DNA from: Maridesulfovibrio sp.
GTDB taxonomy: Bacteria > Desulfobacterota > Desulfovibrionia > Desulfovibrionales > Desulfovibrionaceae
Direction of reading: 5' to 3'
DNA: 64,000 nt
Assembly: GCF_963676065.1 (NCBI RefSeq)
Contig: NZ_OY780933.1
Coordinates: 3,388,122 to 3,452,121 of the forward strand
Shown: positions 2,003-55,359 of the stretch, piece by piece
Layout of the letters: the number at the start of each line of letters is the position of its first letter
How positions within the stretch are numbered: position 1 is the stretch's first letter
The notes under the pieces: model-generated
What the model saw: only the letters and a program-made list of their open reading frames with translations
Database searches by the model: none
Told to the model about the DNA's origin: nothing
Made by a program: the position numbers and the translations under genes

Positions 2003-4258
2003 ATGAATCTTAAATCCATCAAAACAAAAATTGTGCTGAGTTCCGCGTTCTGCATCGCGATCCTTGCTGTTTCAATTATTTCCTTACAAATTTGGGAACA
2101 AAACAGTTCGAGTAAATTTGTCGGAACCAAAGTTGATAATTTAATTGAAAAATCAACAGCTGAAGGCTTGTTGGGAATTGCCAAAGGTGAAGCTGGTGTT
2201 ATCCGCGCCAAACTGGAAAAGAATATTGATACCGCAAGAACCATTGCCAGCGCATTCAAATCCATCCGTTCCGACGATGCAACCAGACACAGCATCGACA
2301 TCCGCAAGGTTTTTAATGATATACTGCTCACAACACTTAAAGATAATCCCGAGTTTTTAGGAACATACAGTGCTTGGCAACCCAACGGCATAGACGAAAA
2401 CGACATAGCGTACCAAGGTAAAACAGAAGAAGGTTATGACGAATCCGGACGTTTTATAACCTACTGGAATAGAGATAAAAAGGGCGACATAGCACGGCAG
2501 GCCCTTGTGGGTTACGAGGATGACAGCCGTCACCCCAATGGAGTCATCAAAGGCGGATGGTTTCTAACCCCTAGAAAAACCGGCAAGGAAAATATTCAGG
2601 ACCCATTTCCTTATATAGTTCAAGGCAAACAGGAATGGCTGACAACAATGTCTGTTCCCATCAAAGTTAATAATAAATTTCTAGGCATTGGCGGCACAGA
2701 CCTACGCTTGGACTTTGTACAGAAGCTTGCCGAGGATGTAGCTAAGGGACTTTATGACGGTAAAGCGATTGTACAGGTGATCAGTTACATGGGCATCATT
2801 GTTGCCGACAGTTCAAATAGCAAAAACGTCGGTAAGCCTATAGGGCAGACCAAGAATAAATATGCAGAAAAAATAAGCCAAAAAGTAAAAGCCGCAGATA
2901 CATACATAAATCTGGGTAAAGAAGACGGAACTGTGTTAGCCCTGTCTCCAATTGCTCTCGGGAACACCGGAACTCCATGGGCTGTACTCATAGAAGTGCC
3001 TAGGGATGTTGTTTTTGCCGGGGCCAATCAACTTGATATAGATATGGCCGAGAATGCCCGGAGCAGCTTTCAAACAGTGATTTTTACCGGTGTCGGGATT
3101 ACTACCTTGGCCTGCATACTCCTTTGGTTTATCGCAGGAGCAATCGTCACACCGATCAAGAAATCCGTGGACTTCGCAGAAAATGTTGCCAATGGAGACT
3201 TTGACCAGAATCTGGACATTAATCAGGCAGATGAAATTGGAGTTCTGGCTGACGCTTTAAAGAAAATGGTTGAAAACCTTAAACAAATGATCCTTGAAGC
3301 TGAAGATAAGAGTAAATCGGCAGCAGAAGAAGCCGCACGCGCCAATGTAGCTGTCGAAGAAGCAACAGCAGCCAAAGAACAGGCCGACAGAGCTGAAAAG
3401 GAAGGAAAACTTCAGGCTGCGCGGGATCTGGAAGAGGTGGTCAGTATTGTAACATCCGCTTCGGAACAGCTTGCCGCGCAAATCGAACAATCAACGACCA
3501 GCACCAAAGACCAATATGACCAGATAAGCGAAGCCGCAACAGCCATGGAAGAAATGAATGCAACAGTTCTTGAAGTTGCTCAAAATGCTTCCAGATCAGC
3601 TGAAACAGCGGATATGACTAAAGAAAAAGCGCAAACAGGTTCAAATATAGTAAGTCAAGTACTAAGCAGCATGGAAGATGTACAGAACGTGGCTGAAAAG
3701 CTCAAAGAAGATGTCACCGCGCTCGGTAAGGATGCGGAGGGAATCGGTCAGGTAATGGAAGTTATCTCGGATATCGCCGATCAGACCAACCTTCTGGCTC
3801 TGAATGCAGCGATTGAAGCGGCCAGAGCAGGGGAAGCAGGAAGAGGCTTCGCCGTTGTCGCAGATGAGGTCCGTAAGTTAGCTGAAAAGACCATGACTGC
3901 TACTCAGGAAGTCGGAACAGCCATCAATAATATTCAAAAGGGAACCCGCGACAACATCGACCATGTCGAGACTGCTGTTGAAAAGATTAACGAAACAACA
4001 GAGCTTTCAGGCCAATCAGGCGAGGCACTGAGCGCAATCGTATCATTCGTGGATGAAACATCAGAACAGGTTCAAAGCATTGCCACTGCTTCCGAAGAGC
4101 AATCGGCAACAAGTGAAGAGATCAACAGATCACTAGGTCAGGTTGCCAAATTATCTTCCGAAACAACACAGGCTATGCAGGAATCAGCAAAAGCTGTTGA
4201 TGAAATGGCAAAACAAGCGCAGGTCTTGCAAAACCTTATCAATCAGATGAAAAACTAG
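2003..4258 (+). CDS. Methyl-accepting chemotaxis protein with dCache sensor
   Basis: A 751-residue transmembrane chemoreceptor. TM1 is at ~10-29, a large periplasmic double-Cache-type domain spans ~40-345, TM2 lies at ~357-380, and a HAMP domain runs to ~433. A long Ala/Glu-rich coiled coil leads into the signalling hairpin, whose highly conserved tip ([20 protein letters not shown]) starts near residue 595. No C-terminal CheR/CheB tether pentapeptide is seen. A strong AAAGGAG ribosome site supports the start. The ligand is unknown; dCache domains commonly bind amino acids, amines or organic acids. It is transcribed alone and ends at the hairpin at 4321-4354. Confidence 0.95.
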
Positions 4259-49598: not shown

Positions 49599-50627
49599 AA
49601 AAACGATCCCAGCGGCACTACCCGCTATGCTTATCTGGAATCCGGTCAGCTTTGTGAAATACTGCTGCCCGATGGCAAAACCATTGAATACCGTTTCGAT
49701 GAAGACGGTTTCCGCTCAGAGAAATATATCAACGGCAAGCTGGTCCAGCGTTATCATTGGAAAGATTTGGTTACCCTTTCAGCTATGGAAGACGGCAGCG
49801 GAACCACTGTGTCCAAGTACAACAAAGCAGGAAAAGCGGTCGGCATGATCCACCGTAAACAGACCTACCTGCTCGGCACCGATCAATTGGGTAGCGTCTT
49901 TGCAGTTGCGGATTTGTCGGGAAACAGCATACAGGAAGTCCTATACGATTCTTTCGGTAGAAAGATAATGAACAGCAACCCTGAATTCAACATCCCGCTT
50001 GGATTTGCTGGCGGTCTTTATGATGAAGATACAGGCTTGATCCATTTCGGCTTCAGGGAATACGATCCGGTCATTGGTCGTTTCATTTCACCTGATCCGC
50101 TGGGATATGCCGGTGGCGATGTGGATGTATATGCTTATTGTCAGGATGAACCGGTGAATGGAACTGATCCGCTGAGGTTGTTTCGATTCGGTAAGAGACG
50201 ACTTGGAGCACTGAAATTTCTCGACACCAAATAAGCCCAAAAAGTCAAAGAAGTCATCCAAAAAACACCCCCTGGTAAACTGGGATCAGCTCTGGCCGAA
50301 GCAGTTGGTGATGATGTAGAAGAAGCCATGGATGAAGAGAATGTCGAACCTAAGCATGAGCATGGCTTCTATGAAGATGGCAGCGGTGACAACGTTGGAT
50401 TCTTCAAAAAAGGCAAAAAGCGTAAAGAAAATAAAGATGAATACGAACTCGAAGAAAAACAATATGACGACAAACGCATGGATAGGGCTGAAAAAAGCGT
50501 AAAAGAGGGAGAATACTCACTTTTGGGCAATCCTATCACAGGGAAGAAAAAGAACAATTGTCAGGACTATGCAGACAAACTTCGCAAACGATATGAAGAA
50601 TTGGAACGCGGAGATCGAATGAGATAA
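49599..50627 (+). pseudogene. Rhs core remnant with toxin-like C-terminal tip
   Basis: Rhs/YD-repeat coding starts abruptly at ~49599 (RYAYLESGQLCEILLPDGK) with no start codon and a stop just upstream in frame. The conserved core end is complete: YLLGTDQLGSVFAVADLSG, then LIHFGFREYDPVIGRFISPD and VDVYAYCQDEPVNGTDPL. An in-frame TAA at 50232-50234 interrupts the variable tip, which resumes in the same frame to 50627. That tip is Lys/Glu-rich and ends with NPITGKKKNNCQDYADKLRK, a pattern seen in papain/NlpC-like toxin tips. Rhs tips are polymorphic toxins; this one is a displaced, 5'-truncated cassette. Confidence 0.8.
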
Positions 50628-50675
50628 AATGAATGGTTCAGGAGGGGCATCGCCCCTCCGAATCCAGAGTTAATA

Positions 50676-51200
50676 ATGAGAAAATTCATATTTCTAGGCA
50701 TAATAATCTGCCTACTGGCAATCTACAATAGCAACATCTTTCAATCCTTTATTTTTCCAGAGAAATTCTATGCGCCCATCATCGAAAAAAAATTTGATGT
50801 GACCAAGAATGGGACTACAATTGTTCTTCCGGTGAAGCACAAGTACATTGAACCCCATTGTTTATATATATCTGTCCCAGATCCTGATGCTTTTACCCAA
50901 TTAATAATTCGAAACAACACACTTGATTTCAATTTCAGTAAAGAAACAGGAACCTTAAAATACAAATTTATTTCTGATGGCGTTACTCTAGATGAAGGAA
51001 TTACCATTCAGCCACAAAGAAAATATTTGCTAGAATCAACTACTAGCTCATCCATTTCTATTCTTCAATTTAACCTTCCATACAAAAACAGTAGTGACAA
51101 CCTTGAACTACATCTTCAAGTAATAGAACCGATGACCTTTTTGTCTAAGTATTCTGGAGAAATAACATGCAATATTCGACCAGAAACCGACTACAAGTAA
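50676..51200 (+). CDS. Membrane-anchored protein, candidate Rhs immunity protein
   Basis: A 174-residue protein with one N-terminal membrane helix (residues 4-22) followed by a beta-rich extracytoplasmic domain. I do not recognise the family. It starts 49 bases after the Rhs tip, is much lower in GC than the Rhs core, and is in the same orientation, which is where cognate immunity genes sit. A toxin acting in the periplasm would fit a membrane-anchored antidote. This assignment rests on position only. Confidence 0.5.
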   Translation: MRKFIFLGIIICLLAIYNSNIFQSFIFPEKFYAPIIEKKFDVTKNGTTIVLPVKHKYIEPHCLYISVPDPDAFTQLIIRNNTLDFNFSKETGTLKYKFISDGVTLDEGITIQPQRKYLLESTTSSSISILQFNLPYKNSSDNLELHLQVIEPMTFLSKYSGEITCNIRPETDYK

Positions 51201-51206
51201 AAAACT

Positions 51207-51331
51207 ATGCAAGACATCTTCGACATCACAGAAAAAGAAATCCAAGAATTATCCGACTCCGACCTTCGCACACTCATTGGCCTTCTGTGCGAGGCTGAGC
51301 TTGAGCGTAACGACCGACCAGTAACGCTCTG
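51207..51331 (+). pseudogene. N-terminal fragment of a nuclease/NTPase-type gene
   Basis: An ATG six bases after the preceding gene opens about 40 coding-like codons (DITEKEIQELSDSDLRTLIG, LLCEAELERNDRPV). From memory this resembles the N-terminus of large restriction/STAND-type defence proteins (LSDxDLRxLIxxLCxAE). The frame runs at 51325 into the antisense DUF6573 fragment, so the gene is cut off. The family link is tentative. Confidence 0.35.
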
Positions 51332-51523
51332 CCCTTCGCCTTCAAGTCCTTTCGGTGGAGTGATGTATCGTTCATACAGGTTTAAAGAAACAGCCACTGG
51401 AACCTTGAATCCGGTTTCTTTCGCCTGCCCGGTCACATCGATCAGGTTTCCGTCTTCGATTGCCTGCTTACGGGTATAGGAATAAATCATCCGAAACAGT
51501 GGATCGCAGTTAATTACCATCAA
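51326..51523 (-). pseudogene. DUF6573-like gene, N-terminal half (copy 3)
   Basis: Minus-strand ATG at 51523 behind GGAGATTCTTG. The first ~64 codons ([48 protein letters not shown]) are intact and then run into unrelated antisense sequence at the GCTCT junction. The C-terminal half is missing. It is the longest of the four copies in the window. Confidence 0.65.
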
Positions 51524-51636
51524 GAATCTCCTTCAATTTCATATTGTTAAATAATCATGAAAATTGAAGGTTATCCTGATTGGTTTGATTTGGTCACTGG
51601 GGTCTTGTGATTTTTTGGGGTGATTCTGTGGATCAG
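51402..51636. repeat. Direct repeat D1 flanking a binding-fold gene
   Basis: About 235 bases from ACCTTGAATCCGGTTT to GATTCTGTGGATCAG, matching 52595-52828 with few differences. It contains the 5' part and upstream region of the DUF6573-like gene. Confidence 0.9.
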
Positions 51637-51744
51637 ATGCGAAGATAATTTTATTTACTATTGGGTACAGAAATAGATTTACAAAAAAAACAACAATATG
51701 CTACGGAGAAGATAAGAAAAAAATTTAACTGGACGAATATCAAC

Positions 51745-52593
51745 ATGGTTAAAAAGATTATTTTAGCACTAATCACATGCATAGTTTTGCCGACTCATCT
51801 ATATGCAGATGATGTTCTAAAATCCTTTATTCCTGAATCGCAATATGACCCAAGATCACTATATGACATTGAACTGTACTATAAAGTAATGGAAGCAACT
51901 AAAGACGAATTTGGACCATTTAAAATCGACCTCATTCAACGAGAAGCATCTCAGAACCGAGACTTACGTGAAGTAGCATCTGGTAAAGCGGTAAACGTTG
52001 ACATTGTAGCTGCACGTACAGAATGGGAAAAAGAAACAATCCCTATAAGAATACCCATTTTAAAAGGACTGTTAGGAATCAGGCTATTTTTGATAAAACA
52101 AAACAAGCTGGACTTATTCTCTAATACCGACAGCCTAGCTGAGTTAAAAAAACTACGACTTGGTTCTGGAAAAACATGGAGTATTACCCAAGCACTGCAA
52201 AGACAGGGATTTAATATTGTATCTGGGAATAACTATGATGGATTATTCAAAATGCTGGTCATAAATCGATTCGATTACTTCCCAAGAGGACTTAATGAAA
52301 TATATAAAGAGTTGGAATTAAGAAAAACTGAATATCCTGAGATAACGATTGAACCAACTATTGCGTTAAAAATTCCTTTACCTACATTCTTCTTTGTTTC
52401 ACCCCAAAATCCACGTTTAGCAAAACGCATTGAATGTGGCTTAAAAAAAATCATGCAGAATGGTGTATTTGATGAACTATTCCAGAAACATTTTGGAAAC
52501 CTGTACCAAAGAGCACAACTCAATAAGAGAAAAATTTTTATGCTGGATAACCCTTGCTTATCACAACAGACTCTTAAAGCTTTGAAACAATAA
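51745..52593 (+). CDS. Periplasmic binding-fold protein, paralogue of 6296-7189
   Basis: A 282-residue secreted protein. I start at the ATG 51745, which opens a signal peptide (VKKIILALITCIVLPTHLYA); the longer frame begins at TTG without a signal. The fold is that of a type II solute-binding protein. Family resemblance to 6296-7189: NRFDYFPRGLNEI against KRVDLYPRGLFEI, PTFFFVSPQNPRLA against ASFFYVRKNNHKL, and the same C-terminal helix. No transporter genes are adjacent. The gene sits between ~235-bp direct repeats with nothing else, is AT-rich, and looks recently acquired. Confidence 0.7.
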   Translation: MVKKIILALITCIVLPTHLYADDVLKSFIPESQYDPRSLYDIELYYKVMEATKDEFGPFKIDLIQREASQNRDLREVASGKAVNVDIVAARTEWEKETIPIRIPILKGLLGIRLFLIKQNKLDLFSNTDSLAELKKLRLGSGKTWSITQALQRQGFNIVSGNNYDGLFKMLVINRFDYFPRGLNEIYKELELRKTEYPEITIEPTIALKIPLPTFFFVSPQNPRLAKRIECGLKKIMQNGVFDELFQKHFGNLYQRAQLNKRKIFMLDNPCLSQQTLKALKQ

Positions 52594-52594
52594 C

Positions 52595-52828
52595 ACCTTG
52601 AATCCGGTTTCCTGCGCCTGCCCGGTCACATCGATCAGGTTTCCGTCTTCGATTGCCTGCTTACGGGTATAGGAATAAATCATCCGAAACAGTGGATCGC
52701 AGTTAATTACCACCAAGAATCTCCTTCAATTTCATATTGTTAAATAATCATGAAAATTGAAGGTTATCCTGATTGGTTTGATATGGTCACTGGGGGGATT
52801 TGATTTTTTTGGTGATTCTGTGGATCAG
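52595..52828. repeat. Direct repeat D2 flanking a binding-fold gene
   Basis: Second copy of D1, same orientation, starting just after the stop of the binding-fold gene. Its DUF6573-like frame (minus strand, from 52714) has GTG instead of ATG and only ~35 codons before the repeat ends. The remaining bases to 52908 hold nothing recognisable. Confidence 0.9.
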
Positions 52829-52908: not shown

Positions 52909-55359
52909 TTACGGGATTACTTTTTCAACAAACCAGACGGGTTTATCAAAAAGCTGTGGATGAGTCTTTTTGATAACTTGTTCTAACTGTATTGGCAGAG
53001 TTGTCTGATATAGAGTTGCAGCACCGGTAAAATCAGTGTTTTTTATTATTGCATTACTAAAATCAGAACCAATTAATGTCGCATTAGTAAAATCTGAACT
53101 TATAATTTTTGAGTTATCGAATGAACAGTTACTCAAATGAGCATTACTAAAATTCACCTTATTTAGATATGCATTTTCAAAAACCGCATGTTCAAGATTA
53201 GAATTCATCATTTTTACAAAAACTAAACTTGCTCCACTAAGATCAATATCTTCTAAATTAGCTTCTGAAAATATAGCAAAATTTAAATTTTCATTTTTCA
53301 ACACGGAATTCATTAAATTAGCTTTGCGAAAACATACACCGACTAAACTACTATTCTTAAACATACTTTTGTCCAAATTGGCATTCTCTAAATTAGCCCC
53401 TTGCATATTTGAGTTATAAATAGTCACGCCTTCTAAATTTGAATTAACAAAATATGACCTTAAATCAGTAGCATTAAATACCACTTCTCGAAAATCTGCG
53501 TCCTCAAAATTAACATTATAAAAACTGGAATTACAAAAACTTGAACCAGACAAACTTGAATTAGTAAAAGTAGAATTATTTGCGTTAACAAATAAAAATG
53601 TAGCAGCATTCATATCTGCGTAATCAAAATATGAGCTTCGGAGTGTAGCTTTTTTGAATTTTGATTTAGTACAATTAGATTTAAAGAAAATAGCATGATC
53701 TAAATTTACACTTTCAAAACAAGAGTTCGATATATCAGAGCTACTGAAGTTAGTATATTTAAACTCTCCACCGCTAATAAAATTGTCAGTAAAAACAGAC
53801 GACCAGATATAACAATTACTAAAATTAGAATCAGCAACTCTACTCGCATCAAAAACTACATCGTAAAATAAATTTTCACCAAAAATAGCATCTTGAACCT
53901 TAATACCACTTAAATTAACTGAGTTATAATGAGATTTATAGACTTTTGTTCCATTAAATAATGATCCTTCAAGATTTGAATTAACAAAAGTAGAATTAAA
54001 AACCGATGTTTTTTTAAAACCAGCATTAGTCAAAGAACAGTTCTGTACTCCCACATTCAACCAATTCGCTCCACTTAAATTAACATTAGCAATATCAGAA
54101 TCCTGAAAAACGAATCTATTTAACTGCTGACCATTAAACGAACAATCCGTAACACTAGAGCTATGAATTGTTGAATTAAAGAACCTACTGTAATCTAGGC
54201 TTACCCTATTCATATCACATCCATAAAAACTGGTGTTATTAGCAACTAATCTATTTAGAGAAGCACCATTTAAATCAGAGTTAAAAATAGCAGAAAAACC
54301 CCAAGTAGAATTACTTAGACTAGCATTATGAAATCGACACTGAAGAAGAAGGGTCTTGTTGAAATAAGATTCATCCATTTTAGCACAGTCGAACGTTGCA
54401 TTAACAGCTTGAGAATTATTAAAATCAACTCCGACCATACTAGCGCCATCAAAAATTGTATTATGCAACGAAGCTCTTCTCAAGCTAGTTCTTTTTAAGG
54501 GCCTTAAATTGAAATTTGACGGGTCAAATTCAATGGCAACATTCCTTCTCCAATCTTGCGCAGCTTTGTGTATTTCTTCTATCTCTGAATATAAGTCATT
54601 TTTTGCCTTACACCACATAAGAGAAGCATTATTAAAAGTAGCCCCATTTAAATTTGCAGATGTCAAATCGGCACCATCAAGAGTAGATTTGTTAAAATTC
54701 GCTCCATTTAACTTAGCTTTTACTAAACTTGCTTCTCGTAAATTTGTTGAGTTTACACTTGCATCTGTAAGATTAGCTTCATTCAAATTAGATAATGATA
54801 AAACACTATTATTTAAATTGCTTTTAATAAGGCTAGTGCCATTCAAATTTGCGCCATATAAATTAAGACTGTGTAAATCTATTTGGCTTAACCGCGCATC
54901 ATGTAATTCTTTTTTGTATGCTTCAATTGATTGCTTAACGACCTCACGAACAGCATCGGGCTCTTCATTCATGCTGAAAGAAGCAATTGTTTTCCAAAAA
55001 AAAAGCAAATCTGGCTGAAGAGGTACTCGCTTCTGTTGTAAATAAAAAATACCAGAACAAGCCTCGTTTTTATTATCTGTTGCCATCCTTGATTGAAATG
55101 CCAATAGCTGAGTCTCCAGAGAATCAATTGCTTGCCCATAACGAGTTGTCGCTATACCAAACAGCACAATGTAAATACTCACAAGCCATGGCATGAAACT
55201 ACTTGGCTTGGTGTAGTTTATATCGTCCTCTTCTCCTTTAGTTCGTGGGAATAATTTTTCACAAACAAGACGAGCCCCAGAATAATTATAAAACTTGGGA
55301 TATTTCCTACAAAGAAGAACAAAGAGGACAGTGTAAACAATGATAATCGCGACTTGCAC
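52909..55359 (-). CDS. Giant pentapeptide-repeat membrane protein
   Basis: An 816-residue protein. Two membrane helices lie at ~1-18 and ~53-73, then a linker with a paired helical region to ~155. From ~160 to ~800 it is an almost unbroken run of five-residue repeats of the A(N/D)LXX type (LYGANLNGTSLIKSNLNNS, SGASLVFVKMMNSNLEHA), with many N/S/F variants. These fold as a right-handed quadrilateral beta helix. The length would give a very long rod, probably facing the cytoplasm or periplasm from a membrane anchor. Function unknown. AT-rich composition suggests transfer. It is on its own between the direct repeats and the tRNA fragment. Confidence 0.85.
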   Translation of the reverse strand: MQVAIIIVYTVLFVLLCRKYPKFYNYSGARLVCEKLFPRTKGEEDDINYTKPSSFMPWLVSIYIVLFGIATTRYGQAIDSLETQLLAFQSRMATDNKNEACSGIFYLQQKRVPLQPDLLFFWKTIASFSMNEEPDAVREVVKQSIEAYKKELHDARLSQIDLHSLNLYGANLNGTSLIKSNLNNSVLSLSNLNEANLTDASVNSTNLREASLVKAKLNGANFNKSTLDGADLTSANLNGATFNNASLMWCKAKNDLYSEIEEIHKAAQDWRRNVAIEFDPSNFNLRPLKRTSLRRASLHNTIFDGASMVGVDFNNSQAVNATFDCAKMDESYFNKTLLLQCRFHNASLSNSTWGFSAIFNSDLNGASLNRLVANNTSFYGCDMNRVSLDYSRFFNSTIHSSSVTDCSFNGQQLNRFVFQDSDIANVNLSGANWLNVGVQNCSLTNAGFKKTSVFNSTFVNSNLEGSLFNGTKVYKSHYNSVNLSGIKVQDAIFGENLFYDVVFDASRVADSNFSNCYIWSSVFTDNFISGGEFKYTNFSSSDISNSCFESVNLDHAIFFKSNCTKSKFKKATLRSSYFDYADMNAATFLFVNANNSTFTNSSLSGSSFCNSSFYNVNFEDADFREVVFNATDLRSYFVNSNLEGVTIYNSNMQGANLENANLDKSMFKNSSLVGVCFRKANLMNSVLKNENLNFAIFSEANLEDIDLSGASLVFVKMMNSNLEHAVFENAYLNKVNFSNAHLSNCSFDNSKIISSDFTNATLIGSDFSNAIIKNTDFTGAATLYQTTLPIQLEQVIKKTHPQLFDKPVWFVEKVIP

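Follow-up and report, generated by a model that had tools for sequence, protein, structure and literature searches.

What is left of an Rhs toxin gene that has lost its start and carries a stop codon, and can the gene behind it still protect the cell? This question is raised by positions 49599-51200 of a 64,000-nucleotide stretch of Maridesulfovibrio sp. contig NZ_OY780933.1, hereafter the window, to which all coordinates refer unless another contig or locus is named. The window's genome (G000) is a single contig of 4.23 Mb. An initial annotation, made from the sequence alone, had described the locus as a displaced Rhs tip with an in-frame stop and a candidate toxin and immunity pair.

The Rhs gene is a pseudogene

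The reading frame is open from 49599, with a TGA just 5' of that position, to a TAA at 50232-50234 (plus strand), beyond which it continues unchanged for another 130 codons to a stop at 50625-50627. The first part of the frame (49599-50231, plus strand, 211 codons) is a 5'-truncated Rhs core remnant. It matched the Rhs_assc_core model TIGR03696 with an E value of 6e-21 (74.7 bits, cut-off 32.5), and residues 281-474 of two intact Rhs proteins from the same genome (675 and 692 aa) aligned to it with 69% and 66% amino acid identity, respectively. Because the window core aligns only from residue 281 of the intact proteins, about 280 N-terminal codons are missing. The comparison with full-length rhs genes had been proposed in the initial annotation, and it bears out the lost 5' part described there; the TAA at 50232 is likewise present.

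With no start codon, some 280 codons gone and a TAA at 50232, the window copy is not an intact ORF with an N-terminal part and a core shell; it is a pseudogene of an Rhs and no working member. Since the start and the N-terminal part are lost and a stop is present, the toxin cannot be made or exported whole. The TAA lies in the linker between the core and the toxin domain, as placed by the reading frame and the tip profile listing. Among 14 tips of the genus, 12 were reported without a stop codon, the window copy has its one TAA, and the tip of genome G014 has a TGA. Programmed readthrough of the TAA was considered and rejected, given that the start and the 5' part of the gene are missing as well.

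The core-to-tip boundary had been called well preserved. It is in fact imperfect, as the core end, usually D-x-x-G-L, reads DPLRL in the window copy. It had further been suggested that such cassettes serve as reservoirs for recombination with full Rhs genes. For the window copy this role looks weak, with a core that shares about 71% DNA identity with the resident rhs genes, an altered core end and a stopped tip.

The toxin tip is conserved

Behind the TAA lies the C-terminal toxin tip (50235-50627, plus strand, 130 codons plus stop), a candidate permuted papain-like enzyme that was characterized by alignments, profiles and a leave-one-out test. It contains the NNCQDYADKLRKRY motif, whose Cys codon is at 50559-50561, and it retains both this Cys and the conserved His (codon 50355-50357). 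An internal ATG opens a 99-aa ORF in the ORF list (50328-50627, plus strand) that spans the two residues and could conceivably be produced separately.

Homologues of the tip occur in other species of the genus. A profile search of 17 genus genomes found 14 tip loci in six of them, where two rows from genome G008 were counted as one locus. Named records with close relatives are Pseudodesulfovibrio and Desulfovibrio assemblies. Full-length relatives with a tip of this type have 616-630 aa and consist of a Teneurin/Rhs shell and Rhs core and a C-terminal tip domain of about 120-150 aa; no convincing match to an N-terminal domain was found in them. At four loci in the Pseudodesulfovibrio/Desulfovibrio assemblies (L054, L056, L059 and L060), Rhs cores are followed by an array that comprises several tips as well as tandem immunity genes.

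We aligned 13 tips (alignment A1) and a further set of 13 (A3), which has some loci in common with A1. The alignments reveal a conserved H-E, an H/Y-x-D-D stretch and an N-N-C-Q-D close to the end. N53, G55, Y94 and Q110 do not vary in either alignment. H41 and E42 are invariant in A1, with conservation of at least 90% in A3, and for C109 the reverse is true (invariant in A3, at least 90% in A1). The His of the H/Y-x-D-D stretch, present in many relatives, is Gln in the window tip, at a position where other rows vary too. In the leave-one-out test the window tip had zero substitutions at strongly conserved columns, and the 2 of 15 columns that it missed lie upstream of the piece.

Outside the genus, two of 297 genomes of the phylum besides the window's own carry the tip (G145 and G186). 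That of G145 sits on a long Rhs frame, and both are followed by overlapping small hydrophobic proteins (78 and 75 aa). The tip was also found on a Desulfocapsaceae contig and a Vampirovibrio plasmid. In L065, a Vampirovibrio chlorellavorus plasmid, a displaced copy from the same family lies at about 4001-4186 and beyond and is apparently split over two frames. Among viral contigs, 75 stretches fit the search patterns and none encodes a relative, while the plasmid records gave no match to the immunity protein and none to an outgroup tip. The window's genome holds no intact toxin of this tip family.

The tip is a putative permuted papain-like enzyme

The Peptidase_C97/PPPDE profile (PF05903) matched 10 of the 13 A1 tips (best E 4.2e-5) and the LRAT profile (PF04970) three of them (best E 0.0072); in A3 the counts were four and two of 13. 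The matches fell near the C-terminal end of both profiles, at the Cys motif. Among the matches listed with scores, the bit scores for both families were below the Pfam curated cut-offs, and the window's own tip matched neither profile. The PPPDE and LRAT families have permuted papain-like folds, in which the Cys comes after the His. The tips show the same order, with conserved H41 before conserved C109, and in a low-confidence model Cys109 opens a helix spanning residues 109-129. A permuted fold would fit because the His precedes the Cys and the matches lie near the C-terminal end of the profiles.

The AlphaFold model of the tip is poor (pLDDT 58.5, pTM 0.37), so the fold assignment rests on sequence. 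A Foldseek search with this low-confidence model returned one insignificant row (best E 5.8), and a sequence-profile search of the PDB with the tip returned chance-level rows only, with no papain-like match. LRAT and PPPDE members across 148 genomes of the phylum included too few good ones for a profile-profile comparison. We regard the tip as very probably a permuted papain-like enzyme (PPPDE/LRAT, permuted NlpC/P60). The earlier suggestion that the NNCQDYADKLRKRY motif marks a Cys-based toxin agrees with its presence and with the Peptidase_C97 matches of the aligned tips. A disordered tip without toxin homologues had been named as the case against it; the homologues speak otherwise, and the tip model is too poor to bear on order.

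The candidate immunity gene is intact and linked to the tip

The next gene (50676-51200, plus strand) is intact and encodes a candidate immunity protein of 174 aa, described from its ORF, homologues and structure model as an N-terminal membrane anchor and a beta-sandwich. The initial annotation had called it an AT-rich membrane protein. It is AT-rich, with a G+C content of 0.37 and 0.34 in the two 500-base intervals covering it, but 'membrane-anchored' is more accurate because one N-terminal helix is followed by a beta domain. The model is of good quality (pLDDT 87.2, pTM 0.81) and places the helix at residues 2-17, with the beta-sandwich thereafter. Its best fold match was 3nkg_A (Z 10.9, rmsd 3.1, 128 residues aligned, 12% identity), a structural-genomics protein from Sulfurospirillum deleyianum whose entry title gives no function. 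No family in Pfam, NCBIfam or PADLOC matched the protein, and PDB sequence profiles gave chance-level rows only. With basic residues ahead of the helix, a periplasmic position of the sandwich is expected, and such an anchored beta-sandwich would be fitting for an immunity protein that acts outside the cytoplasm.

Linkage of the two genes is consistent within the genus: at 13 of the 14 tip loci, a homologue of the window's immunity protein is encoded directly behind the tip, in keeping with the immunity-type gene proposed initially. The exception is G008, whose tip has an internal gap and carries Ser where the Cys would be. Conversely, a tip precedes 13 of the 15 immunity matches in the genus; of the other two, the one in G014 follows another immunity gene in tandem, and the last is a fused fragment. 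Absence of the downstream gene beside homologous tips, the other case held against the pairing, is thus not seen among the tips of the genus; beyond the genus another gene takes that place, as with the small hydrophobic proteins behind the G145 and G186 tips. Among 294 genomes of the phylum, only the window's own was found to encode the beta-sandwich immunity protein.

The fused fragment is in the window's own genome (L039 14369-14629, G000:C1 ~3342.4 kb), where a tip linker is joined in-frame to the last ~40 immunity residues as a C-terminal fragment. It is a second remnant of the same tip-immunity pair, shaped by deletion. The window's immunity protein, whose closest paired homologue shares 42-46% identity, differs at 2 of 17 strongly conserved columns in the leave-one-out test, and both changes are conservative. 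Since the tip and the immunity protein keep their conserved columns, the damage is limited to the 5' part and the stop. A similar arrangement exists in G014, where the tip with an internal TGA adjoins two complete immunity ORFs. Because no intact toxin of the tip family is left in the genome, the window's gene is a candidate orphan immunity gene. From its intact ORF and kept conserved columns it is reasonable that it may still guard against sibling toxins, as the initial annotation had supposed; the low identity of its closest paired homologue and the loss of every intact toxin of the family from the genome weigh on the other side. Experiments on a Serratia Rhs have demonstrated orphan immunity (PMC10539506).

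A positioned hairpin precedes the immunity gene

Folding of the spacer between the tip and the immunity gene revealed a perfect 8-bp G+C-rich hairpin with a 3-nt loop (50641-50659, plus strand), the stem of which ends 16 nt before the immunity start. The spacer has a minimum free energy of -22.1 kcal/mol and a z of -4.60 in a shuffle test. We compared 21 spacers, namely the window's and those of other tip loci, which are not 21 independent events because some are close relatives. In a search for stems of at least six pairs that end 6-20 nt upstream of the immunity start, 19 of the 21 had one, at distances of 8-17 nt, compared with a hairpin within 6-20 nt of the next start in 2 of 43 control gaps. 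The controls were same-strand gaps in four genus genomes, taken from 20 evenly chosen stretches of 20 kb each, for which the first start codon of each ORF was used and may be misplaced. A folding energy of -17 kcal/mol was reached by 19 of 21 spacers versus 2 of 19 length-matched controls.

Shuffling was applied to 19 of the 21 spacers, two near-identical ones (the second of L045, and L053) being dropped, and to one immunity-immunity control; z was -2 or less in 17 of the 19. The control, a tandem gap in L049, has no hairpin and a z of -0.26. The first L056 spacer likewise has no hairpin, the L052 hairpin was missed by the strict search, and the L048 spacer folds no better than its shuffles (z -1.10). 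The stems are G+C-rich, and their sequences vary among loci. Of the 19 spacers, 14 have a Shine-Dalgarno-like tetramer between the stem and the start codon; the window copy has none there. A classical terminator was considered and rejected: among the 19 spacers that have a positioned hairpin, the fixed-stem search found a single one with at least five T in the eight bases past the stem. It should be noted that in L043 a T-run pairs within the stem, which is terminator-like.

At least three other Rhs tips (L040, L052 and L061) likewise have a hairpin ahead of the ORF that follows them. The element is thus not unique to tips of the window type and may be a habit of Rhs cassettes in the genus. 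Its likeliest role would be to shield or insulate the immunity message. More tentatively, it could be a dedicated RNA element, free in sequence, fixed in position before the immunity ribosome-binding site and usually without a terminator U-tract, that sets immunity output independently of the toxin gene, through protection of a processed mRNA or through an open start site, and travels with the cassette. If so, it could explain how cells keep immunity ahead of toxin. No description of such an element was found in the titles and abstract openings of the literature searched, and a literature search for Rhs in Pseudodesulfovibrio yielded no paper.

Genomic neighborhood

Upstream of the Rhs core remnant, on the opposite strand, is an AMP-ligase gene. 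Downstream of the immunity gene, at about 51207-51326, lies a fragment that shares 89% identity, over ~119 nt, with the 5' end of a gene of 1260 aa (G000:C1:3513480), which itself matches PADLOC PD-Lambda-4_A (E 4.5e-270). Two copies of a 218-nt direct repeat (51402-51619 and 52595-52812, 96% identical), both carrying fragments of a DUF6573-type gene on the minus strand, flank an SBP_bac_3-like gene (51661-52593), and related pieces occur elsewhere in the genome. Farther along, the minus strand encodes an 816-aa protein that is largely pentapeptide repeats with a hydrophobic N-terminal part (52909-55359) and a tyrosine recombinase (PF00589, 61506-62657). Because of this recombinase, the region may belong to an integrated island.

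Discussion

We consider it likely that the locus is a dead Rhs effector gene with a surviving immunity gene, the tip being of a permuted papain-like kind and the immunity protein anchored and periplasmic. Homology, the break, the pairing, the conserved residues and the immunity fold model were computed. For the enzyme class, target, delivery and present-day protection, we infer the following. In intact relatives, a short Rhs protein would carry a C-terminal permuted papain-like domain with a catalytic His in the HEHGF region, followed by a catalytic Cys (NNCQD) at the start of the last helix. The tip would be delivered into a rival bacterium, where its substrate would lie at the inner membrane or outside it; phospholipids are the likeliest candidates, as they are what Tox-Act1, the nearest analogue studied by experiment, attacks. 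The downstream protein would be anchored by its one N-terminal helix, and its periplasmic beta-sandwich would bind and neutralise the tip. Of the pair in the window, the immunity ORF alone is whole, and the most it might do is guard the cell against sibling toxins. Regarding delivery, VipB was found in the window's own genome, G008 and G012 (G014 was outside that search) and not in G004 and G006, which carry intact Rhs of the window-tip kind; no PAAR match was found in four intact Rhs scanned against Pfam.

A doubtful alternative is that the whole locus is inert debris, in which the tail and the downstream gene are both decaying and the immunity ORF is intact only for lack of time. The locus is solitary and bordered by scraps (the PD-Lambda-4-type fragment and the duplicated DUF6573 fragments), the genome contains the fused remnant of the same pair at another site, and the window copy lacks the Shine-Dalgarno-like tetramer. 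However, its immunity ORF is full length with its conserved columns kept, and G014 likewise pairs a TGA-broken tip with two complete immunity ORFs. A further reading, that the 99-aa ORF from 50328 is a stand-alone expressed domain and the cassette a working two-gene module rather than a pseudogene, is highly improbable. That ORF does cover the His and Cys, and in L055 a tip likewise occupies an ORF separate from its core, but promoter-like sites are at shuffle level (6 found, 6.1 expected), and the predicted immunity domain would lie across the membrane from any protein made without an export signal.

As to the substrate, a lipid is a credible target by analogy, at a little under an even chance. 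That peptidoglycan or protein is the substrate instead, and the tip a peptidase or amidase, seems to us rather unlikely. In its favor, the strongest family match, PF05903, is named a putative peptidase, and a full-length sister Rhs in the same genome bears a tip of Tlde1, a peptidoglycan-directed family, which PMC12994826 names as periplasm-targeting. On the other hand, PMC12994826 describes permuted members (LRAT, YiiX and Tox-Act1) as directed at lipids and the canonical ones as peptidases of peptidoglycan, and a membrane target would suit membrane-borne immunity proteins.

Under the preferred reading, of a dead effector gene with a surviving immunity gene, the locus is a relic of a known kind and fairly ordinary. 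It is a clear case of an immunity ORF that outlives its toxin. It also contributes a further Rhs tip family, whose target is probably lipid or membrane, and an immunity family with no Pfam, NCBIfam or PADLOC match. The hairpin is the new feature here and the part worth following.

Comparison with known systems

Like Rhs polymorphic toxins with 3' tip-immunity cassettes, the locus combines a conserved core with a variable C-terminal toxin and, just behind it, an immunity gene, and it has leftovers elsewhere in the genome; an orphan Rhs toxin is known in Salmonella, as described in PMC3967940. It differs in that the intact relatives here have 616-692 aa and no PAAR match, and in that the window copy is truncated and stopped. 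PF05903 and LRAT (PF04970) relate to the tip family through weak, repeated profile matches at the C-terminal Cys motif, with the window tip itself unmatched. The closest functional parallel may be Tox-Act1, described in PMC12994826 as a Salmonella T6SS effector and permuted NlpC/P60 phospholipase that is toxic only in the periplasm and cleaves PG and PE. The likeness, drawn from the published description of Tox-Act1, lies in the predicted permuted NlpC/P60 core, the His before the Cys, a membrane-associated immunity protein and, presumably here, action outside the cytoplasm. Imm-Act1, its immunity protein, has two transmembrane helices (PMC12994826), whereas one helix and a beta-sandwich are predicted here; the small hydrophobic proteins that follow the tip outside the genus may be compared with Imm-Act1.
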